DNA from: Lentisphaerae bacterium WC36
Lineage (GTDB): Bacteria; Verrucomicrobiota; Lentisphaeria; Victivallales; SZUA-371
NCBI GenBank assembly: GCA_020683205.1
Contig: CP085689.1
Span: forward strand, 3,404,230 to 3,468,229
Direction of reading: 5' to 3'
DNA: 64,000 nucleotides
Below the pieces are notes generated by a model, which had not been told where the DNA came from, did no database searches, and saw nothing but the letters and a program-made list of their open reading frames with translations. Position numbers and translations under genes: made by a program. Shown here piece after piece: positions 4,624 through 64,000 of the stretch; the stretch's first letter is position 1, and each line of letters opens with the position of its first letter.

Positions 4624-5574
4624 TTAATCTCTTGCAACTTTATATTTGCTAATTTGTTCGCGGATTGAATCGATATCGTAGTCGCATTTTTCATTGATTG
4701 CCGTTTTTACGCTGTATTCGAGATTTTGTAATAATAAATCTTTTAAATCTTCAATATTGATTTCTTCAGGATTCCAATCTACACGTTTTTTCTTTAAATC
4801 TTTCTCGTCATAGCATTTTAGTAAATCGCTAGCAGCACTAAAACGGTGTTTGAAATCTTTTTTGTGAGTCTTTAAGTCCAGAAATATCACTGGAATCCCC
4901 ATCGCTAAGCATGGCAAAGCACAATGCATTGCGCCTGTGATTACTAATGTTGCATTTTGACGGTATTCTTCGAGTAATTTTTCCGCTTCTCCTTCAAAAT
5001 ATTTATGATGAAGATGTGAACCATAATTTTGTGCATAATTTTTTTGACTTAAAATTCGAGCCCTTTTACGAATCTTTTTAGGAATATATTTTTGATATTT
5101 TTCACGAACATCAACAATATAAACTTGTTTATTAATAGGCTGAAGCTCACGTTTGTCTAGAGTTAGAGATAAACATCTTGAAAGGTAAGTTTTTAGCCCT
5201 AATTTTGCTAATTTATCTCGAGTGTAAGTACCTCTGCAGCCTAAGGGTGTTGATTCTTTTAGTGCCAAAATCACCTCTTTATTGTGTAAATAGTGGTCAA
5301 TTGTACGGTTAAAATGAGTGCCAACATAAACTGGAGTTAAGTTTTCACTTGGTAGCCAATCGTATTCTAAAGAGAACCAGCCCTGCATAACGCAGATTGC
5401 TTTTTCTCCTTTATAATAGCGAAGTGAGTCACGATTAAAATCAATGAAATTAAGCTTTTCATCTTTAAATGTCTTTTTTAACGCTCCTTTTAGAGCAACA
5501 CTTTGAATATAATCGCCTAAGCTAATTTTATCATTTGCTACTGGGTAAATATAGTGAAAATTTATGAAATTCAT
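4624..5574 (-). CDS. Polysaccharide pyruvyl transferase-like protein
   Basis: 316 residues. The N-terminal GDYIQSVALKGALKK, the middle RGTYTRDKLAKLGL and the C-terminal GAMHCALPCLAMGIPVIFLD follow the pattern of the polysaccharide pyruvyl transferase family, whose members decorate surface sugars with pyruvate ketals or act on related glycans. Cytoplasmic, with no signal peptide. The start is supported by AGGAG 7 nt before ATG. Family membership is fairly clear from the GAMHCALP...GIPVIFL block; the actual acceptor is unknown. Divergent from the sulfatase gene at 5864. Confidence 0.75.
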   Translation of the reverse strand: MNFINFHYIYPVANDKISLGDYIQSVALKGALKKTFKDEKLNFIDFNRDSLRYYKGEKAICVMQGWFSLEYDWLPSENLTPVYVGTHFNRTIDHYLHNKEVILALKESTPLGCRGTYTRDKLAKLGLKTYLSRCLSLTLDKRELQPINKQVYIVDVREKYQKYIPKKIRKRARILSQKNYAQNYGSHLHHKYFEGEAEKLLEEYRQNATLVITGAMHCALPCLAMGIPVIFLDLKTHKKDFKHRFSAASDLLKCYDEKDLKKKRVDWNPEEINIEDLKDLLLQNLEYSVKTAINEKCDYDIDSIREQISKYKVARD

Positions 5575-10264: not shown

Positions 10265-11545
10265 TTATGATATTGCAAATGCTTGTTCGAAATCGGTAAT
10301 AATATCTATGATATCCTCAATTCCAACTGAAATTCGAATTAGATCCTCACTAATTTTTGCTTTTGCTAATTCTTCTGCTGATAACTGGCGATGACTTGTG
10401 CTTGCAGGATGCAGGACGCTACTTCTAACATCGGCAACGTGGGTAACAATTGCCGTTAATTTTAAATTATTCATCAATTGTTTACTTGCCTCAAAGCCTC
10501 CCTTAATGCCAACTGTAACAATGCCGCTGGCTCCTTTAGTTAAATATTTCTGACCTTCGCTAAGTTCGCTTTCAGCTTTTAAAAGAGGATAATTAACCCA
10601 AGCAACTTTAGGATGATTTTGTAAATATTCAGCCAAAGCTAAAGCATTTTGTGAATGTTTTTCCATCCTTAAATGCAAAGTTTCAAGTCCTAAATTAATT
10701 AAAAATGCATTCTGTGGCGATAATGCTGCACCTGTATCACGAAGCATCGCTGTTCGAGCTCTAACAATATATGCCATATTGCCGAATGCTTCAGAATAAA
10801 TTAGTCCGTGATAACTTTCATCAGGTGTCGTGAATTCGTTATATTTGCCATTTGTCCAATCAAACGAACCTCCATCAACAATTACTCCACCTAAGGCACA
10901 TGCATGACCATCAAAATACTTTGATGCAGAATAAACCACAATATCAGCGCCATGTTTTAATGGTTGGCATAAATAAGGTGTTAAAAACGTATTATCAACC
11001 ATTAATGGTACATTATTATTATGCGCTAAGGTTGCAAATTTTTTGATATCTAAAATGTTTAAACTTGGATTGCCTAAAGTTTCACCATAAACTAATTTTG
11101 TATTTGGTTTGATAAATTTTTGCAATTCATCAATGCTTAAATCTTGAGGGACAAAGGTGACTTCAATATTCATGCTTTTAAAACGATTTTTGAATAATGA
11201 AATTGTTCCGCCATATAAATCCTCAACACTAATAATATGATCACCACTACTTACAATATTCAATATTGCTAAAGTGATTGCTGCTGTTCCGCTTGATGTT
11301 GCCAATGCTCCAACACCGCCGTCAAGCATCGCAACTTTATTCTCTAATTCAGACACAGTGGGGTTGCTGATTCTACTATAAAGGTCACCAATTTGTTCTA
11401 AATTAAAACGCGTTGCCAACTCTTCAACTGAATCATAGCGGTAAGTGGTATTTTGATAAACTGGAAATACTCGAGCTTCACCATTTTTTGGGCGATATGA
11501 TCCTTGTACTAGATTTGTACTAATTTTGTAGTTGTTCTCATTCAT
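10265..11545 (-). CDS. metY: O-acetylhomoserine aminocarboxypropyltransferase
   Basis: PLP enzyme of the Cys/Met metabolism family, 426 residues, the usual size for the MetY branch. It makes homocysteine (or methionine) from O-acetylhomoserine and sulfide or methanethiol. Motifs: FPVYQNTTY near the N-terminus, YSRISNPTVSELENKVA, TSSGTAAITLA for the phosphate pocket, and YSASKYFDGHACALGG, whose Lys binds PLP. It supplies homocysteine/methionine to the metK-ahcY cycle at the left end of the window. Preceded by a consensus promoter and followed by a strong terminator, so it is a single-gene unit. Confidence 0.93.
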   Translation of the reverse strand: MNENNYKISTNLVQGSYRPKNGEARVFPVYQNTTYRYDSVEELATRFNLEQIGDLYSRISNPTVSELENKVAMLDGGVGALATSSGTAAITLAILNIVSSGDHIISVEDLYGGTISLFKNRFKSMNIEVTFVPQDLSIDELQKFIKPNTKLVYGETLGNPSLNILDIKKFATLAHNNNVPLMVDNTFLTPYLCQPLKHGADIVVYSASKYFDGHACALGGVIVDGGSFDWTNGKYNEFTTPDESYHGLIYSEAFGNMAYIVRARTAMLRDTGAALSPQNAFLINLGLETLHLRMEKHSQNALALAEYLQNHPKVAWVNYPLLKAESELSEGQKYLTKGASGIVTVGIKGGFEASKQLMNNLKLTAIVTHVADVRSSVLHPASTSHRQLSAEELAKAKISEDLIRISVGIEDIIDIITDFEQAFAIS

Positions 11546-50825: not shown

Positions 50826-50983
50826 TCACTAGACATTGTAATAACGGTAAATTAGACCTGTTTCGCTTTTGGTATATGCCACGGTTTCATTATCTAGCAA
50901 TAAATGATTGAATGGCGAATAAGCATAATGATTCGCTATTGAACCCGAAGCCATATCAATAAAAAGACTAGCTTCATTTTTTA
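50826..50983 (-). pseudogene. RHS core relic (cassette 10)
   Basis: Conceptual translation gives FIDMASGSIANHYAYSPFNH, then LLLDNETVAYTKSETGLIYR and YYNV-stop. It is recognisable as the core end with an internal deletion of about 12 residues and several substitutions. No tip follows. The most decayed member of the array and the leftmost. Confidence 0.85.
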
Positions 50984-51036
50984 ATTCATTTATTACTGTC
51001 AAATAAAGAAATATTTGCTAATAATTTCAAAGTTTG

Positions 51037-51588
51037 TCACTTTTTTGACTTTCGTGGATAACCCATAAAATTACAGTAAGGTAACGAATCAAAAAAAACT
51101 TTTGTAAAAATAATTAATTTTTTATCATCAGCAAAAAGAGTAAGTTCATAATCTTTTTTATCAAAAGAAAGAATTGCAAAAATATACCCCGATTTATATA
51201 TAGTAGTAACTTTCTTTTCAGGTATGAATAGATAAAAAACATCTATTTTTTCGCAAAAGGCATTAGTATAAGTTAAACTACTTTTAACTACATATACTAT
51301 GATTGTATCAGATATTTTAATCTCATTGACTATTCTTGTTTCATCTTTAGATTTAGGGTAATTTTTGTTAAAAAAATTATCCCAAATATCTTTGTGATTA
51401 ATATTTTTTAAATTCATCTCAAATTTTTTCTTTAAAATACGACTTTCTTCTTTTACTTTTTTATATTCTATTGTATCTTCATATTGTAAATCTTTTATAT
51501 ATAATTTATTCTCATTAATATGAGAACTCCATTGACAAAAAACTATTGTTAATGCGGTTGCAATATTATTTGATGATGATATAAACAC
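51037..51588 (-). CDS. Putative immunity protein of cassette 9
   Basis: 183 residues, GTG start with GGAGA 7 nt upstream. No homology recognised. Mixed alpha/beta with a charged helix YKKVKEESRILKKKFEMNLK and a hydrophobic strand region SGYIFAILSF. A hydrophobic stretch of about 13 residues at the N-terminus could be a weak signal peptide. It follows the broken tip of cassette 9 in the slot occupied by immunity genes in other cassettes; the role is inferred from position only. Confidence 0.5.
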   Translation of the reverse strand: MFISSSNNIATALTIVFCQWSSHINENKLYIKDLQYEDTIEYKKVKEESRILKKKFEMNLKNINHKDIWDNFFNKNYPKSKDETRIVNEIKISDTIIVYVVKSSLTYTNAFCEKIDVFYLFIPEKKVTTIYKSGYIFAILSFDKKDYELTLFADDKKLIIFTKVFFDSLPYCNFMGYPRKSKK

Positions 51589-51619
51589 TTAAAATCTCCA
51601 AATTTATTTGTTTGTTTTC

Positions 51620-52380
51620 TCACACATAGCCACATAATACATTGTAAATTCCTCTATCAGCTGTTTCTTGATCTAATACTAAGTTTTAATCAGTACCATC
51701 AGTATCTTTAGCCTTAGTAGCAAACTGGTTTATGAGGCCAAAGTGCATTAGAATTTTGCCTATACCAATGATAACCAATAGATTTCCCCCTATGATGTTC
51801 AATAAAAAGTACTACCTTATGGTAACATTTATCACAATTCTTACCTTGAGTACTATATTTCACATTATCTTTGCTATAATCTCTCCTAGCTGAAGCCATT
51901 ATTTGAGCACAGTACTGAAGACGATCATCACTTTTCTTATATCTACACACGCTAGCATCTCTGGGCTGAGGGTTATGTTCTCTTACTGGTCCATAATAGA
52001 TATCTCCATGGGTAGGACCATGCATGTCATTTAAAGCATAACTATAACAATTGTTATATCCTTGGGTTCCCTCTTCATTCCATTTATCAGTATCTGCTTT
52101 TACTAATCTTAGGAGATCAATATAAAAAAGAGGGTTGTTTTTTACAAAACCATAAAGCAAATTAAATTCATTATATTTGGTAAATTCACCAATAGGATCG
52201 TGTTTTGTCCATTTGCTATTGGTTGGGTTGTAATAACGGTAATTATAATAGCATAAATTTGTTTCATTGTCAAAATATTCACTTGAAAACTTAAATAGGT
52301 TGTTCACGCTTTCGGTATCGCTTTTCAGCTAACCGAAAGGTGAATATTTGTATTTACTTGAAATACTTCCATCAGTTAAA
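51620..52380 (-). pseudogene. Broken RHS tip, cassette 9 (NCYSYA/HWYRQ family)
   Basis: The core piece is more diverged than in the others and has a nonsense codon in place of the Gln of SPFGQL. From 52307 the frame is open: FKFSSEYFDNETNLCYYNYR, then a tip with GYNNCYSYALND, IGYHWYRQNSNALWPHKP. At HKP a one-base loss shifts the frame; the other frame continues TKAKDTDGTD-stop-NLVLDQETADRGIYNVLCGYV. The NC-Y-YA ... HWYRQ ... HKP ... ADRG-Y--xCGY pattern resembles a tip family I recall from other bacteria. Cys and His suggest a peptidase-like or transferase fold, unproven. Confidence 0.75.
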
Positions 52381-52396
52381 TTTTTAGTTTATAAAT

Positions 52397-52594
52397 TTAT
52401 TTTTGTTTTTTAATTAAAAGTAAAAAAACACAAACCGTATAGAAGAAAAAAATAAGCTCCATTATTAGAGGCATATTTGATGGTTTTGTTTTATCAAAAA
52501 ATACTCTACCGATAAGAGAAGTCATATAAAAACTTCCCAAAAAACTGGTATAAAAAAACATAAATGTATATAATTTTCTTTCATGTTTCCTCAT
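52397..52594 (-). CDS. Small two-span membrane immunity protein of cassette 8
   Basis: 65 residues from the ATG at 52594, which has AAGGTGATC upstream; an in-frame extension to 52735 only overlaps the tip gene and is rejected. Two hydrophobic segments (FMFFYTSFLGSFYMTSL; LIMELIFFFYTVCVFLLL) with a short loop. Clearly homologous to the gene at 55092-55304 (shared pattern FMxxYTxxxGSFxMTSLxxRVF), and both follow the same tip type. Probably protects the inner membrane from that tip. Confidence 0.65.
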   Translation of the reverse strand: MRKHERKLYTFMFFYTSFLGSFYMTSLIGRVFFDKTKPSNMPLIMELIFFFYTVCVFLLLIKKQK

Positions 52595-52607
52595 TTGATC
52601 ACCTTTC

Positions 52608-53435
52608 TCATATTTTATTTTTCCAACCCAATGGCCCTTTTTTAGGAATATTTTCATCTTTCTTTTTCTTTGGATTACCAGCATAAGGGTCTTTTTTAGA
52701 ACATTTTGCAACACATTCTGATGGAGTTGATACAAATTTTTGAGGAGCTTCTTTGTCTTGATATACTTTCACCTTAGGCTCTGCATCAACCCATTTTCCG
52801 TTCTTACAATGCTGCCATATCAATACATGTCTAGTTCCTACAATATACCACTTATTTCCGCATTTATCTTCACACTGTTTAGAACAAAGCTCCTTTTCAG
52901 GATTGTAACGTGTAGCTCCCTCTTCTTCGCAGTCATCTTTAATTTTGTCTATTACAAAATAAGCACCCACCCCAGACAATATACCACTTAAGATAGCTAT
53001 TAGTTGCTGTATTATAGCAGGGTTAATATATGCAGTAGTTGACTTATTTCCTATCAAATCAATCAAATTGATCACATTATTATTAACAAAACCGTATAAA
53101 TTAAATCCACCGTATTCTTGGATTGGGTCTCTGCTGAGCCATTTGCCTATTGTTGGGTTGTAATAACGGTAATTGTAATAAATTAAGCCTGTTTCTTTTT
53201 CAGCATATTCAGAACTGAATTTGAATACGTTTTCAACATTCTCATCTGTTTTTGCTAATTGTCCAAATGGGCTATAATCGTATTTATTAGCGATTTCTCC
53301 TGTTGTTAAATTAATTAACTGCGTAATATTTTTATTGCCATCGGCGATGTAATTAAATACCACACCATTTTTTTCTAATGCCAATAAATTATCACCTAAC
53401 CAAACAAATCTATCACTTATTGACCCACTATTCAA
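52608..53435 (-). CDS. Orphan RHS tip, cassette 8 (membrane-segment tip)
   Basis: 275 residues from a TTG that is merely an internal core codon; no ATG or ribosome binding site is present. Core residues 1-118 are subtype LAKTDENVENVFKFSSEY. The tip begins after NLIDLIGNK with a hydrophobic span (IIQQLIAILSGILSGVGAYF), followed by a Cys-containing region with CEDKCGNKWYI, RHVLIWQHCKNGKWVDAEPK and ending GPLGWKNKI. The last ~115 residues are nearly identical to cassette 6, while the hydrophobic part differs. Likely a membrane-acting toxin, by inference from the small membrane immunity protein that follows 13 nt later. Confidence 0.75.
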   Translation of the reverse strand: MNSGSISDRFVWLGDNLLALEKNGVVFNYIADGNKNITQLINLTTGEIANKYDYSPFGQLAKTDENVENVFKFSSEYAEKETGLIYYNYRYYNPTIGKWLSRDPIQEYGGFNLYGFVNNNVINLIDLIGNKSTTAYINPAIIQQLIAILSGILSGVGAYFVIDKIKDDCEEEGATRYNPEKELCSKQCEDKCGNKWYIVGTRHVLIWQHCKNGKWVDAEPKVKVYQDKEAPQKFVSTPSECVAKCSKKDPYAGNPKKKKDENIPKKGPLGWKNKI

Positions 53436-53498
53436 CTCATCAACGGTTATATTATAAATAAAACACCATAATTCTTTAACTATGGTGTTGAATAAAGC

Positions 53499-54056
53499 CT
53501 AATTTTTATCCTTAAATTTTGTATGAGGTTCCATCCATACAAAAGCATTGAAAATATAATACCCCCTCATAGAGAGAGATTCAACGTTTTCTTCAACCAC
53601 ATTCCATGGATATCCGCCAACCTCTATGGTTTCATAACCAATTAAAGTAACTTTTTTACCATCTTCATCTAAAAACTTATAGTAATAACGCATAGGTAGT
53701 TTGATGATTTTTTTTAGTTTTGTATCATCAATTTCCTCTATATTAATATATATTACTTTTGAACGACCTTTGCAGTTTGTATTAACAACAGATATAATTC
53801 CAGATACCTTTATTACCTCACCAAAATTGTGAGGTAATTTTGCATTAACTTGGGATACTCCATCCCTTGTTTTATTTAATTTTATGATGCATGGCTTCTT
53901 TTTGTAACCTATAGGGTTATATGTTGAAGTTGTCTTTGTAGTATTTTGCTTTGCATCATTTGATTTTTTTAACCCTAAAAACAATATAGAGCCCAAGAAC
54001 AACATCGTAAGTAAAAATAATAAGTAGCTCTTGTTAGTTAGATATTCTTTTTTCAC
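53499..54056 (-). CDS. Membrane-anchored putative immunity protein of cassette 7
   Basis: 185 residues. N-terminal hydrophobic anchor YLLFLLTMLFLGSILFLGL, then a soluble beta-rich domain with a GKVTLIGYETIEVGG-type segment. ATG start 11 nt after the tip stop. Not recognised as a known immunity family. Anchored outside the cytoplasmic face or in the periplasm, which would fit a tip that acts there; inferred from position. Confidence 0.6.
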   Translation of the reverse strand: MKKEYLTNKSYLLFLLTMLFLGSILFLGLKKSNDAKQNTTKTTSTYNPIGYKKKPCIIKLNKTRDGVSQVNAKLPHNFGEVIKVSGIISVVNTNCKGRSKVIYINIEEIDDTKLKKIIKLPMRYYYKFLDEDGKKVTLIGYETIEVGGYPWNVVEENVESLSMRGYYIFNAFVWMEPHTKFKDKN

Positions 54057-54067
54057 TTTTTAATTCC

Positions 54068-55048
54068 TTATTTTTTTTTAGGTTTTGAATCTTTTTCAGG
54101 TTCAAAATTTTTATCACCGCAAACTAAACACCATGCCTGACCATTAAAATTAGTATTCCCGTAATAGACAGAGCCATCTTTTCCTTTATGCTCTCCCCAT
54201 TCGTCTTCAGTCCAAATATATATACGTCCTTCTTCTGTGATGTCTTCTTTTGGGTAATTATCTCCTACACCATCACCATTTTTATCAGGATTATTATAGT
54301 GATTTCCAGAAGTAATAGTTCCATCTGGATTTACATAACCATAATCAAACTTAATACTATCTTCATCCATACCTTCCTTATCCCAATTACTAAAATCAGC
54401 TTTGCCTGTTTTAGGGTCAAACGTTACATCAGGATTTATACCATCTTTGCCTTTATCATTCCAAAAGTGAACTGAAAACATTTTTGGACAAACCTTGTCT
54501 TTGCATTTATTTTTCATTTCTCCCTGAGCATCTGTTGCTTGTTGTTTTGTTTTATAGCAATTATCATGATTTTCAATAACTCCAGTATTAGCACAAACAA
54601 CTCCGACACATCCCCTATTTATTTGTTTTCTCACCCAAGGTGCATATATAATATTCCCAGGATTTTCTTTAAATTTAGGGTGTGCATCAAAATATTTTTT
54701 TAAATAATCTTCCAACGACATTTCTGTTCTTAATCCTAAAATATCATAGAAAACAATTGGATTATTGTACGAATTCCCATAAATGTTTTCTCCACCTTTT
54801 TCTTGGATTGGGTCACGTTTTAACCATTTTCCTGTGCTTGGGTTGTAATAACGGTAATTGTAATAGATTAAGCCCGTTTCTTTTTCAGCGTATTCACTAC
54901 TGAATTTGAATGGATTTTCAACCGTTTCTACGTCCGCAATTAGCTGACCGAATGGCGAATAATCATAACGATTCGCTATTGAACCCGAACTCATATCAAT
55001 CAACTGTGTGATATTTTTATTGCCATCTGCGATGTAATTAAATACCAC
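54068..55048 (-). CDS. Orphan RHS tip, cassette 7 (RGCVGV family)
   Basis: 326 residues from a GTG inside the core; no own ribosome binding site. Core subtype LIADVETVENPFKF. The tip follows VFYDILGLRTE: WVRKQINRGCVGVVCAN, NCYKTKQQATDA, MFSVHFWNDKGKDG, SIKFDYGYVNPDG, and a C-terminal WCLVCGDKNFEP. The RGC-G, FDYG and C-x-x-C blocks are reminiscent of a polymorphic-toxin tip family with a catalytic Cys that I recall, but I cannot name an enzymatic activity with confidence. Confidence 0.72.
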   Translation of the reverse strand: MVFNYIADGNKNITQLIDMSSGSIANRYDYSPFGQLIADVETVENPFKFSSEYAEKETGLIYYNYRYYNPSTGKWLKRDPIQEKGGENIYGNSYNNPIVFYDILGLRTEMSLEDYLKKYFDAHPKFKENPGNIIYAPWVRKQINRGCVGVVCANTGVIENHDNCYKTKQQATDAQGEMKNKCKDKVCPKMFSVHFWNDKGKDGINPDVTFDPKTGKADFSNWDKEGMDEDSIKFDYGYVNPDGTITSGNHYNNPDKNGDGVGDNYPKEDITEEGRIYIWTEDEWGEHKGKDGSVYYGNTNFNGQAWCLVCGDKNFEPEKDSKPKKK

Positions 55049-55091
55049 ACCATTTTTTTTGGCATTTTCGACATCATTAATGATTTTTCTT

Positions 55092-55304
55092 TTACTTTAT
55101 AAGTCTATCTTTATTTTTAATTAATAAAATCAAAACGCAGACAGCATAAAGGAGAAAAATAAAATCCAAGGCTATTTTCGGAATGGTAGACCTCTTTATA
55201 ACCTCAACAAATACTCTGTTAAAAAGAGATGTCATATGAAAACTTCCTATATAAATAGTGTATATTGACATAAATCTATATATATTTTTTTTACTGTTAA
55301 ACAT
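55092..55304 (-). CDS. Small two-span membrane immunity protein of cassette 6
   Basis: 70 residues. Two hydrophobic spans (FMSIYTIYIGSFHMTSL; ALDFIFLLYAVCVLILL) and a basic C-terminus. Homologous to 52397-52594, the partner of the same tip type. Starts 12 nt after the tip stop. Confidence 0.65.
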   Translation of the reverse strand: MFNSKKNIYRFMSIYTIYIGSFHMTSLFNRVFVEVIKRSTIPKIALDFIFLLYAVCVLILLIKNKDRLIK

Positions 55305-55316
55305 AAAAACTCTCCT

Positions 55317-56099
55317 TTATATTTTATTTTTCCAACCCAATGGCCCTTTTTTAGGAATATTTTCATCTTTCTTTTTCTTTGGATTACCAGCATAAGGATC
55401 TTTTTTAGAACATTTTGCAATACATTCTGATGGAGTGGATACTAATTTATCAGGAGCTTCTTTGTCCAGATATGCTTTCACCTTAGGCTCTGCATCAACC
55501 CATTTTCCGTTCTTACAATGCTGCCATATCAATACATGTCTAACTCCTAAAATATACCACTTATTTCCGCATTTATCTTCACATTTTTTACCACAAAGTT
55601 CTTTTTCAGGATTGTAACGAGTAGCTCCCTCTTCGTCACATTTTTCGTTTTTAAACATCTTGTCATATGCAATACTAGAAATAATTCCTGCAATAATTGC
55701 TCCTATATATTCAGCGATCTTCCATATAACAACAGGATTAACAGCAGCATTAGATGGTTTACCTCCTAATAAATCAATCAAATTGATCACATTATTATTA
55801 ACAAAACCGTAAACATTCATTCCGCCGTCTTCTTGGATTGGGTCACGCTTTGTCCATTTGCTATTGGTTGGGTTGTAATAACGATAATTGTAATAGATTA
55901 GACCTGTTTCTTTTTCAGCGTATTCGCTTGAAAATTTGAATGGATTTTCAACCGTTTCTACGTCCGCAATTAGCTGACCGAATGGCGAATAATCATAACG
56001 ATTCGCAACCGAACCCGAACTCATATCAATCAACTGCGTGATATTTTTATTGCCATCTGCGATGTAATTAAATGCCACGCCATCTTTTTCTAATGCCAA
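55317..56099 (-). CDS. Orphan RHS tip, cassette 6 (membrane-segment tip)
   Basis: 260 residues from a TTG in the core. Core subtype LIADVETVENPFKF, unlike cassette 8, although both carry the same tip. The tip has a hydrophobic span (IAEYIGAIIAGIISSIAY) after NLIDLLGGKPS, then EEGATRYNPEKELC, CEDKCGNKWYI, RHVLIWQHCKNGKWVDAEPK and ends GPLGWKNKI. Cysteines are paired. No enzymatic motif recognised. The neighbour is a two-span membrane protein. Function of the tip: probably membrane-directed, inferred. Confidence 0.75.
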   Translation of the reverse strand: MALEKDGVAFNYIADGNKNITQLIDMSSGSVANRYDYSPFGQLIADVETVENPFKFSSEYAEKETGLIYYNYRYYNPTNSKWTKRDPIQEDGGMNVYGFVNNNVINLIDLLGGKPSNAAVNPVVIWKIAEYIGAIIAGIISSIAYDKMFKNEKCDEEGATRYNPEKELCGKKCEDKCGNKWYILGVRHVLIWQHCKNGKWVDAEPKVKAYLDKEAPDKLVSTPSECIAKCSKKDPYAGNPKKKKDENIPKKGPLGWKNKI

Positions 56100-56175
56100 T
56101 AAATTATCACCTAACCATACAAATATCTACTATTTATTAATATACATACTTAAAAAATACTAATAAAAAGTAAAG

Positions 56176-56622
56176 TTATTTTTTAGGACTATTTGTATTC
56201 ATTGTTAAAACCTTTTCAATATTTACAAAATTAACATTTTTAGTATTATATTTTCTCTTAACCTTTGGTTTTACGGCATCATCATACCAGTTATAGTACC
56301 AAAACATAGTATAAACTTTATATTTATTTTCAGGTTCATTTTCTTTTTTTATCATAACTAGATAAAGAACATCCTGAGAATTTTTAAATTTTATAACTAA
56401 AACATTTTCTTGATAATCTTCTGGAGTGTTAAACTCACAAGCGTCATTGCCATCCCCTAATGATATATCATTAGGGTAAGACTCCAAAATTTTCTTAATA
56501 TTTTGATATTCAGTGCCAATTTTTATTATAGAATAAAATTTGTCTTCATCAATAGAACACCCAATAATCGTAAAAATAGTAATAATAATCACGTAAAATG
56601 AATAAAATTTTTTAATAATCAT
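56176..56622 (-). CDS. Lipoprotein, putative immunity protein of cassette 5
   Basis: 148 residues. Signal ending in IFTIIGC (lipobox), so lipid-anchored, then a soluble domain rich in Tyr, Asn and Lys (YQNIKKILESYPNDISLGDG, WYYNWYDDA-type). Starts 20 nt after the tip stop, in the immunity slot. No family recognised. A periplasmic lipoprotein would fit protection against a tip entering the periplasm, by inference. Confidence 0.6.
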   Translation of the reverse strand: MIIKKFYSFYVIIITIFTIIGCSIDEDKFYSIIKIGTEYQNIKKILESYPNDISLGDGNDACEFNTPEDYQENVLVIKFKNSQDVLYLVMIKKENEPENKYKVYTMFWYYNWYDDAVKPKVKRKYNTKNVNFVNIEKVLTMNTNSPKK

Positions 56623-56642
56623 GATAAATCCTTTTTTTAAAG

Positions 56643-57368
56643 TTACATATATCTTGTAATAGGTTGTATTGGCTTTTTAGGAGGCACTCTTTGGCTATTT
56701 TTATCATACTCCCATTCGGGATCATTCTTATACCAATCTTGAGGCTTGTGAAGAAAGTCACCATTAAACCAACCATCATCAATATCAATACAACATTTTT
56801 TCTTTTTACAGTCACAGGCACAGAATCGTGCAAAGAAGTGAATTGAAACTCCTCCTCCTTCACGAGGAGTTTTACTTATGATTCTCATTCTGCGAACTTT
56901 CCATATACCTAAACCTTCATTACTCCCTATTTCAAAGAAAAGTTGAGCCCAATCCCAGCACAAAAATCCTCCAACGTTATCTTTTCCTTTATTCTTACCT
57001 TTTCCCCAATTTTTTATCCAACTATTATAAATACTCCTCCCTATTTTATGTGCACTCCACTTACAATATATTGTTTTTCCAATTCCTTTACAGCAACTTT
57101 TTGTGCATAATGAATCTAGTTTTTTCCCTAAATTTTTAAAAGCTACATCTCCAGCAGCTTTATCTTCCAAAGTCGCTCCATTATTTAACCCTAATTTATC
57201 AACTGCGTTTATAGAGTCACCATTACTCAAACAATATAAATTATACCCACCGTATTCTTGGATTGGGTCTCTGCTGATCCATTTGCCTGTTGTTGGGTTA
57301 TAATAACGGTAATTGTAATAGATTAGACCTGTTTCTTTTTCGGCGTATTCGCTACTGAATTTGAACAC
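56643..57368 (-). CDS. Orphan RHS tip, cassette 5 (Cys-His-Asp protease-like)
   Basis: 241 residues from a GTG in the core. The core homology (subtype LAKTDENVENVFKF) begins later than in other cassettes, near 57421. After NAVDKLGLNNG the tip has CTKSCCKGIGKTIYCKW, then GGFLCWDWAQLFFEIGS, SIHFFARFCACDC and IDIDDGWFNGDFLHKPQDW. The order Cys-x-x-WA ... His ... Asp-x-W is the layout of papain- or transglutaminase-like folds, so a cysteine protease or similar activity is a reasonable guess. Catalysis is not shown. Confidence 0.72.
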   Translation of the reverse strand: MFKFSSEYAEKETGLIYYNYRYYNPTTGKWISRDPIQEYGGYNLYCLSNGDSINAVDKLGLNNGATLEDKAAGDVAFKNLGKKLDSLCTKSCCKGIGKTIYCKWSAHKIGRSIYNSWIKNWGKGKNKGKDNVGGFLCWDWAQLFFEIGSNEGLGIWKVRRMRIISKTPREGGGVSIHFFARFCACDCKKKKCCIDIDDGWFNGDFLHKPQDWYKNDPEWEYDKNSQRVPPKKPIQPITRYM

Positions 57369-57452
57369 GTTTTCAACATTCTCATCTGTTTTTGCTAATT
57401 GTCCAAATGGGCTATAATTTTATAACACCATTTGGTACATTCGATTTATAAA

Positions 57453-57965
57453 TTATTTTTCAGGGTTGCGTTCGTATATGACTTTACTTTTGCCATTTAC
57501 AACTTTTATTTTTTTAATTAAGAAACCCGTCTCATTGTAACACCTACTCTCTCCAGTATAAGGCTCCATAGTCTTACATGGCTTTTCTAATATTAAAATA
57601 TCAGAAAAATAATTATTGGTAAATCCGAATCTATATTTTGTATCAGGATATACAACTTGTTCAAAAAGGTGACGTCCATTTTCTGAATAAAACGATTCTC
57701 TATGAGATCCATCTTTATAAAAGATAGTTTTTTTTTCAAGCATTCCACTCAAATAATAATATTCATGTGTTCCAACAGGTTGTCCATCTTTAAATTCACC
57801 TTTATAAGCCAATTTCCCATCTGGGTAATAACAAATATTAACTCCTTCTGGAGTTATAAGGAGTCTAGGATTTAATTCACTTAATTGTTGGATATGGACT
57901 TCAGGTGATTTACAGCCCAATAAACAAACTATTGAAAAAATAAACAAAAATAAACAAGTTTTCAT
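57453..57965 (-). CDS. YwqK-like lipoprotein, putative immunity protein of cassette 4
   Basis: 170 residues from the ATG at 57965; an in-frame extension to 58052 only overlaps the tip. Signal peptide with lipobox LLGC. The body has repeating Y-x-x-G-x-L units (YYPDGKLAYKGEFKDGQPVG, YYLSGMLEKKTIFYKDG), the MORN-like pattern of YwqK-family antitoxins. It therefore probably neutralises the Cys-rich tip just upstream. Related in pattern to the gene at 58874. Confidence 0.72.
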   Translation of the reverse strand: MKTCLFLFIFSIVCLLGCKSPEVHIQQLSELNPRLLITPEGVNICYYPDGKLAYKGEFKDGQPVGTHEYYYLSGMLEKKTIFYKDGSHRESFYSENGRHLFEQVVYPDTKYRFGFTNNYFSDILILEKPCKTMEPYTGESRCYNETGFLIKKIKVVNGKSKVIYERNPEK

Positions 57966-57984
57966 AATTATATAACTCCTATTT

Positions 57985-58800
57985 TTAAGGTTTTTTACAT
58001 GCATTGCATAAATCGACAGCTGCAGCTTTATAGGCCTTAACGGCAGCTTCACACGCTTTTTGGTTAACAGATCCTTTTACTAGTTTATCACAAGCTAAGC
58101 TCATAAATTTTGCACTGTTCTCAACTTTTTTATGACATGCTTTTTTACTGCATTTTGAGAATATAGGTATTTCTACATCTGAATCTATTTTCATTAAATG
58201 AGGAATAAATTTGGGACATGATCCAGCTTTTTTCCCAAATGCACCTCCTGAACAATGACATAAAAAACTTCCTCTAACAATTTTAGTATGAATATAAGTA
58301 AGAGGTGTAGGAGGCAATTCCCATGAACGCTTACTTGAGTCAAATGCGATATCTGGTCTATTATTCACATCTTTTTCAATGCACGCATATTCGCAACTTC
58401 TATCACAATCATTTACCATATAGGAACTTTTAAGGACGCATCTAAAGTAGATTTTAACTCCATGACCCAAATGGTCTGTGTTTGATATAGGTTGATTATT
58501 AACAAAACCATAAATGTTTTCTCCGCCTTTTTCTTGGATTGGGTCACGCTTTAGCCATTTGCCGTTTACAGGATTATAATATCTATAATTGTAATAAATT
58601 AAGCCTGTTTCTTTTTCGGCATATTCGCTTGAAAACCTAAACGGATTCGCCACGGTTTCGTTATTTTTTGATAACTGACCGAATGGCGAATAATCATAAC
58701 GATTCGCTATTGAACCCGAACTCATATCAATCAACTGCGTGATATTTTTATTACCATCGGCGATGTAATTAAATACCACACCATCTTTTTCTAATGCCAA
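57985..58800 (-). CDS. Orphan RHS tip, cassette 4 (cysteine-rich)
   Basis: 271 residues from a TTG in the core. Core subtype LSKNNETVANPFRF. The tip after SNTDHLGHG is unusual: 13 cysteines in about 160 residues (DCDRSCEYACIEKD, FLCHCSGG, CSKKACHKKVEN, ACDKLVKG, CNACKKP), suggesting disulfides or metal clusters. No family recognised. It is followed 19 nt later by a YwqK-like lipoprotein, a type of immunity partner seen with other polymorphic toxins. Confidence 0.72.
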   Translation of the reverse strand: MALEKDGVVFNYIADGNKNITQLIDMSSGSIANRYDYSPFGQLSKNNETVANPFRFSSEYAEKETGLIYYNYRYYNPVNGKWLKRDPIQEKGGENIYGFVNNQPISNTDHLGHGVKIYFRCVLKSSYMVNDCDRSCEYACIEKDVNNRPDIAFDSSKRSWELPPTPLTYIHTKIVRGSFLCHCSGGAFGKKAGSCPKFIPHLMKIDSDVEIPIFSKCSKKACHKKVENSAKFMSLACDKLVKGSVNQKACEAAVKAYKAAAVDLCNACKKP

Positions 58801-58873
58801 TAAATTATCACCTAACCATACTATTTGAAATTAGGTTTTTAATTGTGTTAAATAATTTTTACAATTACTAATA

Positions 58874-59404
58874 TTAATAGTAAGCATCTTTAGGGTATCT
58901 ATACTCTTCAACTGTTTTTCCTTTTTTATAGACTTGCATCCAATATGTCACTCCTTTTGCTGTTGCTTCAAAACTCAAAATATCCCCATTATAGGGTAGT
59001 CCATTCTTAAAATCACATTTACTAACAAGTTTTCCTGCTTTATTAAATGTTCTCCATATTAACATTTTTCCGTTTTCATAAATTTGAAGAAATTTTAAAT
59101 TATTAGCTAAAATTATCCATTGACCATCTTTTTTCCCATGTATATAGCCTCCAAACTCACTATAACCAAGTAATTGTAGTTTATTGTGTTTACGAGGAAA
59201 GTTTACTTTGCTATAATAGCCATGTTTTATTTTTTTTCCATATTTAATATAATATTGAAATTCTATTATTTGATTATAATTTTGTCTTTTTACATATTCA
59301 GTTTCTGAGAAAATTTTTTTCTCAAAATTAAGTTTAATAAGAAATAATAAACCAATTAGTAAAAAACAAAAGGTCACTAATAAAAAATTCAAATGTTTTT
59401 TCAT
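58874..59404 (-). CDS. YwqK/MORN-like putative immunity protein of cassette 3
   Basis: 176 residues. N-terminal membrane span NFLLVTFCFLLIGLLFLI, then repeats of the MORN-like pattern (YSEFGGYIHGKKDGQWIILA, YENGKMLIWRTFNKAGKLV). The ATG overlaps the tip stop as ATGA, so toxin and immunity translation would be coupled. Same repeat type as the lipoprotein at 57453 but anchored by a span instead of a lipid. Confidence 0.7.
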   Translation of the reverse strand: MKKHLNFLLVTFCFLLIGLLFLIKLNFEKKIFSETEYVKRQNYNQIIEFQYYIKYGKKIKHGYYSKVNFPRKHNKLQLLGYSEFGGYIHGKKDGQWIILANNLKFLQIYENGKMLIWRTFNKAGKLVSKCDFKNGLPYNGDILSFEATAKGVTYWMQVYKKGKTVEEYRYPKDAYY

Positions 59405-60339
59405 TTATGATTACCCCACTTTTCTAAGGCCTTATCAATTCTTTTATCTGTATCTTCATTTCCTCTTTCTCCTCTCTTTTTACCACCCTTCATATATCCT
59501 CCTTCATATGGCTCACTCTCTCCTTTTCTTCTTATCTCTTTTTCTCGTTTTTTGCCTCCTTCTGCTTTTACCTTTCTTTCTGAGGTAAAAGTAAATGACA
59601 TTGTGTCAATAATTTCCCATTTTGTGGAATCTTTTTTATTAACGCAGATTGCTAATACCGTAATATGATGAGTTTTTGCACCAGAGTTATAGGGGCTATC
59701 CACGTAATAATATGATTTTATACTTTTCCCAGAGCGCGACATTGGGGCTGGATTTCCCTTGCCTTTTGTTTTCTTTTGAGTTTTTATTTCCGCTTTTGTT
59801 GCATCAACATGAGGGCTGCGTCCATTTATCCCTCCCGAAGAAGATATAACTTGGCTTAAAATAATTTTACCTCCACATTTTTTACAATCGTTCTTTTGTT
59901 TTTCTGTTGGGATATATCTAACTTTAAAACCTGCTTCCTCATCACTAGGTCTATTATCATTAATTTTTATATCATCTTTCTCGGTTATAATAAATACACC
60001 TAATCCTAAAACGTCAATAAAGCTTATAACATCATTACCAATAAAGCCATATAAATTATACCCACCAAATTCTTCGATTGGGTCGCGGGATAGCCATTTG
60101 CCGTTTACAGGATTATAATATCTATAATTGTAATAAATTAAGCCTGTTTCTTTTTCGGCGTATTCACTACTAAATTTGAAAACATTCGCCACAGTTTCGT
60201 TATCTAACGATAACTGACCGAATGGCGAATAATCATAACGATTCGCAACCGAACCCGAACTCATATCAATTAACTGCGTGATATTTTTATTACCATCGGC
60301 GATGTAATTAAATACCACACCATCTTTTTCTAATGCCAA
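59401..60339 (-). CDS. Orphan RHS tip, cassette 3
   Basis: 312 residues from a TTG in the core. Core subtype LSLDNETVANVFKF. The tip after FIDVLGLGV: KKCGGKIILSQVISSSGGIN, GRSPHVDATKAEI, SPYNSGAKTHHITVLAICV, and a long basic tail rich in Lys, Arg, Glu and Gly (GGKKREKEIRRKGESEPY onward). His and Cys residues occur but no activity can be named. Partner is the MORN-like protein that overlaps its stop. Confidence 0.7.
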   Translation of the reverse strand: MALEKDGVVFNYIADGNKNITQLIDMSSGSVANRYDYSPFGQLSLDNETVANVFKFSSEYAEKETGLIYYNYRYYNPVNGKWLSRDPIEEFGGYNLYGFIGNDVISFIDVLGLGVFIITEKDDIKINDNRPSDEEAGFKVRYIPTEKQKNDCKKCGGKIILSQVISSSGGINGRSPHVDATKAEIKTQKKTKGKGNPAPMSRSGKSIKSYYYVDSPYNSGAKTHHITVLAICVNKKDSTKWEIIDTMSFTFTSERKVKAEGGKKREKEIRRKGESEPYEGGYMKGGKKRGERGNEDTDKRIDKALEKWGNHK

Positions 60340-60378
60340 TAAATTATCACCTAACCAAACAAATTTTAAAAATAATTT

Positions 60379-61197
60379 TTACTTTATATATTTTTTTCTT
60401 AAAAATGTGAAATATTCTTTAAGTTTTAAAAAATCATCTTTATTTAGCGGGGAATTGAGTAATTCAGCTTTTAAAGGAACATTTAAAAAAATTTTATTAT
60501 ATACGACGTCTAAGGTAAAGATTATTTTTTTATCATTAATATTTTTAGTTTCAGAATATTTTCTTTTGAGTGAAGATTTATCATTTAGGTCATAAAAATA
60601 TGTTGTCTCTGAAATACAATTCTTTCCTTTGATATTAAATGGAACAATTGATTTCTGTAATAAAAAAGTTCTTTTTGCAAAGAAAAAAACAAGTTGTCTA
60701 GGACTTTTCTCATTTTTCGTCATACATACTAATTTATAACAATCTAAATCATTTACCTTTGATATTTTGTTATCAATTGTAATTGTTTTAAAAAATGTTC
60801 TAAAATCTTTAAATTTTTTAAAAAATACAACATCTGGGTAGTTTATAGTTTTAGCAATATTTAAATCTTGCTTTAATATTTTAGAAGCTAGTAAACTCCA
60901 TTTTTGAATGCCATTATTGCCTTTATATAAATTTTTTTTACCAGTTGTCGATAAACAAAGTAAAGATTTTTCAGAAGTGAAAATATAACAACAAGAACTT
61001 TCTACTTTTTTTATTCCTTTTCCATAAATAATACCTTTTAAAGTACTAAATGTTAAAAAAGAGAATATTTGTTTATTTTTGTATTTATTTATTGCTGACT
61101 GAAAAAATTCTTCAACACCAATTGCTTTTTCTTCATGCTTACTTATTAAATTATTACACATTAACAACATTATTATAAAATATAAAAATAATTTCAT
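60379..61197 (-). CDS. Exported putative immunity protein of cassette 2
   Basis: 272 residues. Signal peptide MKLFLYFIIMLLMCNNLISK, then a lysine-rich alpha/beta domain with segments CCYIFTSEKSLLCLSTTGKK and LDCYKLVCMTKNEKSPRQLV. The overall look, a beta-rich exported protein with a DVVFFKKFKDFRTFFKT helix, is reminiscent of outer-membrane lipoprotein sorting (LolA-like) folds, but I do not claim homology. The start lies 2 nt after the tip stop, with GGGG upstream. Role inferred from position. Confidence 0.6.
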   Translation of the reverse strand: MKLFLYFIIMLLMCNNLISKHEEKAIGVEEFFQSAINKYKNKQIFSFLTFSTLKGIIYGKGIKKVESSCCYIFTSEKSLLCLSTTGKKNLYKGNNGIQKWSLLASKILKQDLNIAKTINYPDVVFFKKFKDFRTFFKTITIDNKISKVNDLDCYKLVCMTKNEKSPRQLVFFFAKRTFLLQKSIVPFNIKGKNCISETTYFYDLNDKSSLKRKYSETKNINDKKIIFTLDVVYNKIFLNVPLKAELLNSPLNKDDFLKLKEYFTFLRKKYIK

Positions 61198-61199
61198 TA

Positions 61200-62108
61200 T
61201 TAACTTGCCCCTTCAATTGTATCTTTAAATTTATTTCCCTTTTCACAAGGACAACCACTTTTGTCTTTATCATTCAAATTAGAGCAAGAAAGCCTAATGC
61301 TTATTGATAGGGGAGAAATAGTATTTTCTGACAATCCTATCGTTGTTGTTACAGATCCTCTACCGCTTATGCTTTGCCCCACTCCCATAGCGCCTATTCC
61401 AATAGAACATGGAGATGGGGTAGAATTTCTATGATTAGCAGTTATTGATCCTTCAATTCCAAAAGGCATAGGAGTCCATGACAAACAAAAATATTCACAG
61501 CCGTTATCTTTCACAAAATACTCAAAGGCTGTAAATAAATATATGACTGCGGCTCCATATGCAACTTCACTTATTTCATTTGCATCAGAATATGGAATTT
61601 CTCCACGACCTTGATCTCTCAACATCTCTTCCGTTTGGTCGCTAACTTCACCTAAAAAATTCTGTTCACAAAAAGCCATTTCTTCAGTTCCATTTTCAAA
61701 TCCTCCATTACTAGCCCATGCTCCCAAGTTATCATAATAAATTATAGGCCTATTATTAACAAATCCATAAAGGTTTTGTCCGCCTTTTTCTTGGATTGGG
61801 TCGCGTTTTGTCCATTTTCCGACGGTTGGGTTGTAATAACGGTAATTGTAATAGATTAGACCTGTTTCTTTTTCGGCATATTCGCTTGAAAACCTAAACG
61901 GATTCGCCACGGTTTCGTTATCTAACGATAACTGACCGAATGGCGAATAATCATAAAGATTCGCAACCGAACCCGAACTCATATCAATCAACTGCGTGAT
62001 ATTTTTGTTACCATCGGCGATGTAATTAAATACCACGCCATCTTTTTCTAATGCCAATAAATTATCACCTAACCAAACAAATCTATCACTTATTGAGCCA
62101 TTATTCAA
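61200..62108 (-). CDS. Orphan RHS tip, cassette 2
   Basis: 302 residues. The core piece is the longest here, reaching ISDRFVWLGDNLLALEKDGV, and the homology continues to about 62113. Core subtype LSLDNETVANPFRF. The tip after YYDNLGAWA begins with an acidic helical part (GTEEMAFCEQNF, ANEISEVAYGAAVIYLFTAF). It then becomes a Gly/Ser/Thr-rich beta region (GIGAMGVGQSISGRGSVTTT) and ends with a Cys pair, CPCEKG. No family recognised. Still no start codon beyond an internal one. Confidence 0.7.
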   Translation of the reverse strand: MNNGSISDRFVWLGDNLLALEKDGVVFNYIADGNKNITQLIDMSSGSVANLYDYSPFGQLSLDNETVANPFRFSSEYAEKETGLIYYNYRYYNPTVGKWTKRDPIQEKGGQNLYGFVNNRPIIYYDNLGAWASNGGFENGTEEMAFCEQNFLGEVSDQTEEMLRDQGRGEIPYSDANEISEVAYGAAVIYLFTAFEYFVKDNGCEYFCLSWTPMPFGIEGSITANHRNSTPSPCSIGIGAMGVGQSISGRGSVTTTIGLSENTISPLSISIRLSCSNLNDKDKSGCPCEKGNKFKDTIEGAS

Positions 62109-62160
62109 CTCATCAACGGTTTTTATTAGCTTATATGCTAATGACTTAGAAATTTACTAC

Positions 62161-62775
62161 TCATAACAAGTTATCTTCAAACGGTAATTCTAAACAAGTC
62201 TCCTCTTTACAAGGCTCATTCTTATTTTTTCTAAGATGCAATTTTCTATATTTATTTAACCATAACGCCATAAAAAAAACATGATTAAGCTTATGAGTTA
62301 AGATTTCATCCATTCCTCCATAAATCATTTTACTATTTCTAGGAAAAGTGTAAATATCATACCCAACAACATTTGGAATAATAGCCAGCATAGGGGTGTT
62401 TTGATATGAAAGTTCAAAAGCATAGTAAAGAAATAAGGCATCAATTCCCCCACCATAAGTACGACCTCCACTATTCATTGTTTCCAAAAATAGTTTACGA
62501 ATACCTTTTTCACAAACAATTTTCTTTCGGATAAACTCATCTTTTATTCTACAATTTTTAACTATACTTTGTGGCAAATTTCGAATATACTTTTTGTAGA
62601 GCTCTTCTTCTTTTAGCACAACCACTGTAAGTTGATCACAATTATTTATCACATAATTAATATCGCCATTTTTACAAGATTTTTCTAAAATTCTTTTTAC
62701 AGGCTTAGTTTGAATTTGATTAAGCTCAATGGCTATCGAAAAAACAATGGGAATTGTTAGTACTGTATTAATCAT
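62161..62775 (-). CDS. Putative immunity protein of cassette 1
   Basis: 204 residues. Hydrophobic N-terminus (MINTVLTIPIVFSIAIEL) acts as a signal or weak anchor. The rest is helical and basic with NSGGRTYGGGIDALFLYYAF in the middle and KLNHVFFMALWLNKYRKLHL near the end. ATG with AGAGA 8 nt upstream, 18 nt after the tip stop. No family recognised; role inferred from the conserved cassette order. Confidence 0.6.
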   Translation of the reverse strand: MINTVLTIPIVFSIAIELNQIQTKPVKRILEKSCKNGDINYVINNCDQLTVVVLKEEELYKKYIRNLPQSIVKNCRIKDEFIRKKIVCEKGIRKLFLETMNSGGRTYGGGIDALFLYYAFELSYQNTPMLAIIPNVVGYDIYTFPRNSKMIYGGMDEILTHKLNHVFFMALWLNKYRKLHLRKNKNEPCKEETCLELPFEDNLL

Positions 62776-62793
62776 ATTACGAATCTCTTTTAA

Positions 62794-63828
62794 TTACTTA
62801 TTTTTACATGGAAAACTAAATTTATCATTATTTAAAGGCAATATTTTAGGATATTTATTCTTTTGTTGCCCTTTCTTATCATAATAAGGCGATGGAAATG
62901 AAGGCTTGTGTTTACCACATGGCGTTTTCCCATCCCACTCCGCACGCTTACCTTCTTCATTATAATAATATTGTTTATACCTGTTCTGCCCTTGATACTC
63001 ATACTCTCCTTCAACAATTTTACCATTTTTGTCAGATTTTGGTCTATCACCCCTGTATCTATAATCTAATGCTACGCCCTTATATTTTGATGAAACCCTA
63101 AATTCCACGCTTATATTTTTACAATCACAATCACAGTTTTGGGACATTTTATAAGCTTTATTTAATGTAGCAAACCACGCCTGCATCATTAAGCGAGTAA
63201 AAGAGCTATGTAACGCTTTAACTTCACTATCATTAGGGTATTGTTTTTTGTATTTTTCATAATAACCTCCATTTGAACAACCAGGATCAGTTCCTACAAG
63301 TCCTCCAGCACAATTAGGCATACCTTTTATACCATTTCTACCATCAGTATAACAAGCCACACCTCCAACGCAACTACACTTATCTTTATTTTTATCAAAT
63401 TTTTCAATTCCATCCTGAACATCACCATTATGCCCCCATAATAGAACGACTTTACACTTTTCTTTATTTTTTTCTTCTGAAACTTCTTTCAATCCGTATA
63501 AATCGGAATAATTAAGTGGATCTGCTCCAAGTATTACATAAAGATTTACCCCACCGTCTTCTTCGATTGGGTCACGCTTTATCCATTTGCCATTGCTTGG
63601 GTTATAATAACGGTAATTGTAATAAATCAAGCCTGTTTCTTTTTCAGCATATTCACTACTGAATTTGAATACGTTTTCAACATTCTCATCTGTTTTTGCT
63701 AATTGTCCAAATGGGCTATAATCGTATTTATTAGCGATTTCTCCTGTTGTTAAATTAACTAACTGTGTGATGTTTTTATTGCCGTCAGCGATATAATTAA
63801 ATGCTACGCCATCTTTTTCTAATGCCAA
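62794..63828 (-). CDS. Orphan RHS tip, cassette 1
   Basis: 344 residues from a TTG in the core. Core subtype LAKTDENVENVFKF. The tip after NYSDLYGLKE starts with a compact alpha/beta segment CKVVLLWGHNGDVQDGIEKF, then CSCVGGVACYTDGRNGIKGM, a helical QAWFATLNKAYKMSQNCDCD, a strand ISVEFRVSSKY, and a long polar tail ending FPCKNK. The GH-G-x-V/DxI, CSCVG, N-x-G and CxC order is one I recall from RHS-like proteins of other environmental bacteria, with no known activity. It is the most intact cassette and the one nearest the presumed main gene. Confidence 0.72.
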   Translation of the reverse strand: MALEKDGVAFNYIADGNKNITQLVNLTTGEIANKYDYSPFGQLAKTDENVENVFKFSSEYAEKETGLIYYNYRYYNPSNGKWIKRDPIEEDGGVNLYVILGADPLNYSDLYGLKEVSEEKNKEKCKVVLLWGHNGDVQDGIEKFDKNKDKCSCVGGVACYTDGRNGIKGMPNCAGGLVGTDPGCSNGGYYEKYKKQYPNDSEVKALHSSFTRLMMQAWFATLNKAYKMSQNCDCDCKNISVEFRVSSKYKGVALDYRYRGDRPKSDKNGKIVEGEYEYQGQNRYKQYYYNEEGKRAEWDGKTPCGKHKPSFPSPYYDKKGQQKNKYPKILPLNNDKFSFPCKNK

Positions 63829-63832
63829 TAAA

Positions 63833-64000
63833 TTATCTTAAACTCAAATATTCCATATGCAACATGAATAATGGCATCAACATAGATATAAGAAATAAAA
63901 CAGATATATGCATTGAAATTAAAAATACATTTTTCTGAGAATAGATTTTTACAATAATATTATAGACTTGCAACACCATAAAGAAAACAATAACTATAAT
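63833..64000 (-). CDS. C-terminal part of a membrane protein, probably the next immunity gene
   Basis: Open to the right edge, 55 residues plus stop visible. Three hydrophobic patches (VIVFFMVLQVYNIIV, VFLISMHISVLFLISML, PLFMLHMEYL). The stop codon lies inside the first bases of the core repeat of cassette 1, so the protein ends at the cassette junction. It fits the immunity slot of another cassette upstream. Confidence 0.6.
   Translation of the reverse strand: MIVIVFFMVLQVYNIIVKIYSQKNVFLISMHISVLFLISMLMPLFMLHMEYLSLR

Follow-up and report, generated by a model that had tools for sequence, protein, structure and literature searches.

The 64,000-nucleotide (nt) stretch analysed here (the window; C1:3404230-3468229 of the 3.66-Mb single-contig genome of Lentisphaerae bacterium WC36, order Victivallales) ends in a long array of RHS gene fragments, each coupled to a small partner gene. 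Very probably, displaced rhs-CT/rhsI modules are stored here behind a full-length gene for an RHS polymorphic toxin, which is probably exported by Sec. At 51714-63837, all on the minus strand, lie nine intact core ends of RHS genes, and each continues into a different C-terminal tip. Every tip is accompanied by one small partner gene at a spacing of −50 to +125 nt. Read along the minus strand, the order is the main rhs gene, its own partner, the nine orphan modules and a degenerate remnant.

The original prediction, made from the letters of the window, expected a full-length RHS gene upstream whose end matches the orphan cores. Just past position 64000, we found an open reading frame (ORF) of 1925 amino acids with an N-terminal signal-like stretch, predicted to be a signal peptide (64384-70161 in extended coordinates, C1:3468613-3474390, minus strand). 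Because this gene adjoins the array and has a matching core end, the array does not stand without a full-length RHS gene upstream. Its own partner gene is located directly behind it (63833..64381, minus strand, running past the window end at 64000) and encodes a putative immunity protein of 182 amino acids with multiple transmembrane segments. The orphan core ends of the window share 76-90% nt identity with the main gene over 157-387 nt; E values of 1e-37 to 1e-131 exclude chance similarity. The orphan cores align from a variable point of the main gene (nt ~5017 to 5240) up to nt 5372, and in nearly all fragments the homology stops at the RDPI codons (main nt ~5372). Over the last 270 nt, the window cores are 59-88% identical to the main core.

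Ten core-end copies had been claimed. Nine are intact, and for these the arrangement of core ends on one strand, each with a tip and a small gene, was borne out; the tenth is an 86-nt degenerate remnant without the motif (50878..50963, minus strand; 78% identity to main nt 5176-5261). The two motifs described as shared, FSSEYAEKETGLIYYNYRYY and RDPIxExGG, both occur in eight of the nine cassettes and not in the most distal one (51714-52307), which reads FSSEYFDNETNLCYYNYRYY...HDPIGEFTK at the motif sites. As had been noted, the window tips are mostly unrelated, the sole homologous pair being those at 55317 and 52608, whose partners are homologous too, and no recombinase, insertion sequence or transposase ORF lies between the cassettes.

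The window array is part of a wider system. Another array lies on the plus strand (482.2-531.9 kb) and comprises 33 cassettes of the core family seen in the window, without a main gene; its first element is a 681-nt truncated core that is 95% identical to the main gene. About 14 more orphans carry a second core family, partly chimeric with the first, and are found behind a main gene at 576.8-581.8 kb and also at 624-627 kb and 1031-1035 kb. Altogether, the genome contains about 56 orphan cassettes. The stock is therefore large, as predicted, but the window holds only a part of it and the main stock is the 33-cassette array elsewhere.

The main locus is present twice (2232678-2254334 and 3469019-3491035, ~22 kb), with 97.7-99.8% identity over the aligned parts. 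The two main RHS genes are identical over the first ~4500 nt, only ~74% identical in the last ~270 nt, and end in unrelated tips. Koskiniemi et al. 2014 (PMC3967940) proposed rhs duplication followed by a swap, and two main loci that differ in core end and tip look like the product of such a process. A search of genome contigs with the N-terminus of the main gene found no relative. The main rhs genes are preceded by a conserved set of genes for a FlgD-Ig protein, TSP3-repeat proteins, a HEAT-repeat protein and a 437-amino-acid protein (extended coordinates 70180-76981, 572.9-576.9 kb and 2238-2243.5 kb), which are 89-99% identical between loci and are possibly surface display or export partners.

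Cassettes have moved between the two arrays. In the window, the segment from the joint of orphan 1 to the joint of orphan 2 is 98.6% identical over 1769 nt to the one between cassettes 14 and 15 in the 33-cassette array, and the next segment is 97.4% identical over 1718 nt to that between cassettes 17 and 18. Tips and partners of both shared cassettes have 99-100% protein identity between the arrays, and the window block lacks exactly one cassette relative to the 33-cassette array. Orphan 2 (61200..62108, minus strand) is a hybrid: its core end is that of cassette 15, apart from an inner patch derived from another allele, and its tip is that of cassette 17. The two are joined inside the 8-nt stretch GACCCAAT. 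On its outer sides, the shared block likewise ends in core ends, so that every breakpoint is located there. The 272-amino-acid partner of orphan 2 (60379..61197, minus strand), which has a signal-like N-terminus, is identical in the 33-cassette array. So is the 204-amino-acid partner of orphan 1 (62161..62775, minus strand), which has an N-terminal hydrophobic segment; the tip of orphan 1 (core end and tip at 62794..63828, minus strand) is 99% identical in amino acids to that of cassette 14.

The core ends also carry a statistical trace of exchange. In a set of 42 core ends, variable sites 1-6 nt apart have an r2 of 0.31 and those more than 100 nt apart one of 0.02, a decay steeper than in all of 1000 permutations (0/1000 as steep), and 90% of the site pairs fail the four-gamete test. 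The ratio of non-synonymous to synonymous polymorphism (pN/pS) stays under 1 for tips and partners as well as for core ends. The linkage pattern and the shared blocks are most simply explained by exchange between core ends, through recombination and conversion over short identical stretches; in meningococcal tpsA/tpsC, identity stretches of 5-23 bp suffice for gene conversion (PMC3848433).

For toxicity, immunity, expression, delivery and benefit of the modules, we infer the following scheme from the DNA. A module consists of the last 130-360 nt of a core, a tip (the putative toxin domain), a partner gene (the putative immunity gene) and sometimes a terminator. Modules would be gained, lost and relocated through exchange between core ends, either by homologous or microhomology recombination or by gene conversion. 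If a module crossed over with a main gene, the latter would be reloaded with another core end and, along with it, another tip and immunity gene; recombination between modules would delete or insert whole cassettes or copy blocks between arrays. In storage, the tip fragment would be mostly untranslated, while the partner would retain its ribosome-binding site. The array could thereby act as a bank of alternative toxins and as a shield against relatives using the same toxins. A stronger version of this scheme takes the 33-cassette array as a dedicated reservoir, that is, a bank kept by selection, with silent tips and expressed immunity genes, which trades cassettes and re-arms the two main genes at a meaningful rate; we regard this version as tentative and rather doubtful.

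One could instead see the arrays as a passive graveyard, in which former tips of the main gene were pushed downstream in turn and now decay as an ordered, functionless fossil record. The window array has some of this appearance, as it lies on one strand next to the main gene, consists of fragments without start signals and ends in a degenerate remnant, and the big array has two frameshifted cores. Against this, reading frames are open in 40 of 42 cassettes (all 9 of the window and 31 of the 33 of the big array), the cassettes shared by the two arrays have 97-99% identity, and the largest array has no main gene that could displace tips. Core similarity to the main gene is also independent of position: it is irregular in the window, and in the big array the Spearman correlation between divergence and position is 0.01 (p 0.94). 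A chronological, CRISPR-like record was rejected on the same numbers, and we disfavour the graveyard as improbable. For the idea of inherited immunity to past tips, this means that the stock of displaced tips stands, and the ordered history of the cell's own gene does not, at least two cassettes having recently been copied between arrays.

The start signals bear on whether the stored tips are genes in their own right. Shine-Dalgarno (SD) motifs precede 34 of the 58 called starts of partners and only 4 of the 52 first in-frame starts of core-tip fragments, against a random rate of 0.118 (11.8%). This asymmetry suggests that the stored tips are probably silent and the partners expressible. According to a rival view, the orphan fragments are short, signal-less genes resembling toxin-antitoxin modules, expressed from own or internal starts. 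Such a role was reported for an orphan rhs gene of Salmonella (PMC7043789). Here, a few cassettes (12 and 21) have a leader with a good SD and an ATG, and an in-frame AGGTGA-TAATTTA-TTG, i.e., an SD-like motif and a TTG, is nearly invariant in the fragments that include it. However, the AGGTGA motif is also coding sequence within the main gene, many family-1 fragments start downstream of it, and the first in-frame starts, with SD motifs at background level, are mostly TTG or GTG. Tips as ordinary genes with their own starts were thus mostly not found, the conserved internal SD-like motif with TTG being what remains of that possibility, and we consider such expression unlikely. In main rhs nt 5095-5120 and ~25 orphan cassettes, TTAGGTGATAATTTATTGGCATTA forms a minimum of diversity (1.2% vs 5-15% nearby). 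It resembles an SD with a TTG start, and several cassettes begin just upstream of it.

Least probable of the rivals is a dedicated site-specific, integron-like system that would recognise a DNA site where core and tip meet: GACCCAATC stands at the joint in 41 of 59 cassettes though GAC and ATC are minority codons here, this preference is absent in other genomes and the orphan 2 crossover lies inside GACCCAAT, but many other core-end codons are equally skewed to C-ending or fixed forms, other breakpoints lie elsewhere, neither recombinase nor tRNA is found near the arrays, and gene conversion over 5-23 bp is documented in meningococcal tpsA/tpsC (PMC3848433). As a candidate site, GACCCAATC was rejected: its counts are suggestive, but the whole core end has an unusual codon choice and other fixed codons. 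In the last 100 nt of all core ends, C-ending codons (TAC, TTC, AAC, ATC, GAC) are far commoner than in the rest of the system, perhaps as a trace of gene conversion. As for an integron-type array, no recombinase occurs in or beside the arrays, attC-like sites not having been searched with a dedicated model.

Two further origins were considered and rejected. A mobile island found no support, as neither tRNA, integrase nor recombinase is present at the 33-cassette array. For a phage or plasmid origin, the window array gave no nucleotide match, and a distant core end occurs in just two IMG/VR contigs. Two group II intron-type genes (reverse transcriptase, RT/HNH) are located at C1:540250-546090, 8 kb downstream of the 33-cassette array; further copies with equal RT scores are present elsewhere in the genome.

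Tips and partners are linked in descent. The 58 tips fall into 37 families by BLAST. Of nine pairs of homologous partners, eight follow tips that are homologous as well, which supports a one-to-one pairing. As had been predicted, the partners have signal, lipid or membrane features: a hydrophobic segment lies in the first 60 residues of 54 of the 58 partners genome-wide, compared with 8 of 21 control ORFs of the window. Nearly all partners are thus predicted to be secreted, lipid-anchored or membrane proteins, and such targeting suggests the envelope as the site where the toxins either act or are stopped. According to Zhang et al. 2012 (PMC3482391), immunity proteins are cytoplasmic in all but few cases. 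In contrast, because the partners here carry N-terminal hydrophobic segments, the tip-partner repertoire looks aimed at the envelope. One tip family, which includes the window tip at 51714, has an invariant NNCYxYA...CxxCxH...YHWYR and recalls a cysteine peptidase. For two tip families, profile searches against the PDB gave no match, and an AlphaFold2 single-sequence model of tip 62797-63504 was too poor to use (pLDDT 38.8).

Several points weigh against the array as a store of toxin modules. Among 56 tips, Pfam matches at E<0.01 are few (DUF4329 twice, Peptidase_M10 twice, Prok-JAB once and two doubtful ones), so that it is their position and pairing that justify the label "toxin"; NCBIfam gave one weak match, to an M6 metalloprotease. 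The near-invariant internal TTAGGTGATAATTTATTG in many fragments is a fair SD with a TTG and could allow weak translation of stored tips. The recombination history is read from one genome of the species, and recurrent mutation at ~20% divergence can sharpen the decay of linkage between core-end sites. For delivery, no match to the type VI secretion system (T6SS) protein Hcp was found in the genome. Two Phage_base_V matches are present, neither at the rhs arrays, and the main gene has a signal peptide; in these respects, the system does not resemble the class of T6SS Rhs effectors. Taken together with the evidence above, we nevertheless hold a store of displaced modules to be the best explanation.

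The other cassettes of the window, all on the minus strand, have the same build. Orphan 3 (core end and tip, 59401..60339) is followed by a partner of 176 amino acids with an N-terminal transmembrane segment (58874..59404). The partners of orphan 4 (57985..58800; partner 57453..58004) and orphan 5 (56643..57368; partner 56176..56622, 148 amino acids) have lipobox-like N-termini. Orphan 6 (55317..56099), whose tip shares 73% amino acid identity with that of orphan 8, has a membrane protein of 70 amino acids as its partner (55092..55304), and orphan 7 (54068..55048) has one of 185 amino acids with an N-terminal transmembrane segment (53499..54056). The partner of orphan 8 (52608..53435) is a membrane protein, 86 amino acids as called (52397..52657), and homologous to that of orphan 6. 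Orphan 9 (51714..52307), with the divergent core end, carries an NCYSYA...YHWYR motif common to two tips of the 33-cassette array and precedes a partner of 183 amino acids (51037..51588). Between orphans 7 and 8 lies a terminator-like hairpin, AACACCATAGTT...GTGGTGTTTTTT (53462..53489, minus strand), which recurs between cassettes of the 33-cassette array (L025:7873-7904 and 10686-10721). The same hairpin between unrelated cassettes indicates that intergenic elements travel with cassettes.

A third RHS family is found at C1:425998-443000, where a main gene of 3006 amino acids precedes orphan core ends that begin with MLGGNHDITNTAATDLLYSGEQ and have partner genes; this locus holds a 2.9-kb direct duplication (93% identity). 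When 387 genomes of the phylum were surveyed with an Rhs core model, first-look candidates numbered 74 here, 55 in a second genome and at most 27 in the others listed, a rough ranking as 14 candidates were scored per genome and fragmented metagenome-assembled genomes (MAGs) under-count repeats; the 33-cassette array may not be a record. One genome of the same order (G012, 5 contigs) carries 46 or more core ends; they are spread over many short arrays, most of which follow a full-length RHS gene of their own. Among the genomes searched, it alone comes close to the present one. SZUA-371, a relative from the same family, has two cassettes built in the same way, with a membrane partner. Relatives of the tips are found on other RHS core ends in other genomes of the Planctomycetes-Verrucomicrobia-Chlamydiae (PVC) group. 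In one Lentisphaerae MAG (L040:3-659), a homologue of tip 26 lies behind an apparent transposase/integrase fragment and not behind an RHS core.

The principle of displaced rhs tips with immunity genes, reloaded via the core, is already established. In enterobacterial rhs-CT/rhsI systems (PMC2935791, PMC3150448, PMC3967940), a full-length rhs gene with polymorphic tip and immunity gene is accompanied by same-strand fragments of core end, tip and immunity gene without start signals, with recombination through the core and duplication followed by a swap. The marks of such modules are present here: a core 3' end with a non-homologous tip, a co-inherited small gene and no own start, apart from the internal SD/TTG. 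A full-length rhs gene upstream on the same strand accompanies the window array and not the 33-cassette array. Attached and detached cores of one locus are identical in the enterobacterial systems (Jackson et al. 2009, PMC2935791), a property not part of the definition; here, they are 59-88% identical, and the cores are mosaic (75-95%). Also unlike those systems, 33 cassettes stand without a main gene, cassettes moved between arrays of one chromosome, and partners are envelope-targeted, with no T6SS Hcp found; in these respects, the present system is different.

Other families show parallel designs. The CdiA-CT/CdiI array of E. coli EC869 (PMC3150448) likewise places orphan toxin/immunity pairs behind a main toxin gene, and its eleven cdiA-CT/cdiI pairs are the largest single attached array quoted in the literature consulted; it differs in that CdiA/two-partner secretion (TPS) proteins are not RHS proteins and the array is smaller and attached to its main gene. 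Meningococcal tpsA/tpsC and mafB-CT (PMC3848433, PMC4287609) share silent 3' cassettes with immunity ORFs and recombination in 5-23 bp stretches, with the collection of immunity genes as the proposed aim. They belong to other protein families, and many tpsC cassettes have stops or frameshifts, whereas nearly all frames are open here. Snodgrassella alvi, from the gut community of bees (PMC5727410, PMC8125069), likewise has a great number of Rhs tips in each genome and orphan arrays of great length; there, the tips belong to T6SS effectors, many orphans are transcribed and the repertoire is spread over several loci. Jackson et al. 2009 saw no within-genome source of new Rhs tips and proposed an episomal pool. 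In contrast, a large tip pool lies on the chromosome itself in the present genome, and recent cassette traffic between its arrays is directly readable from the breakpoints. Its tips form nearly 40 families, hardly any of which has a Pfam match; together with the envelope-targeted partners, they are a source of new putative toxin-immunity pairs.

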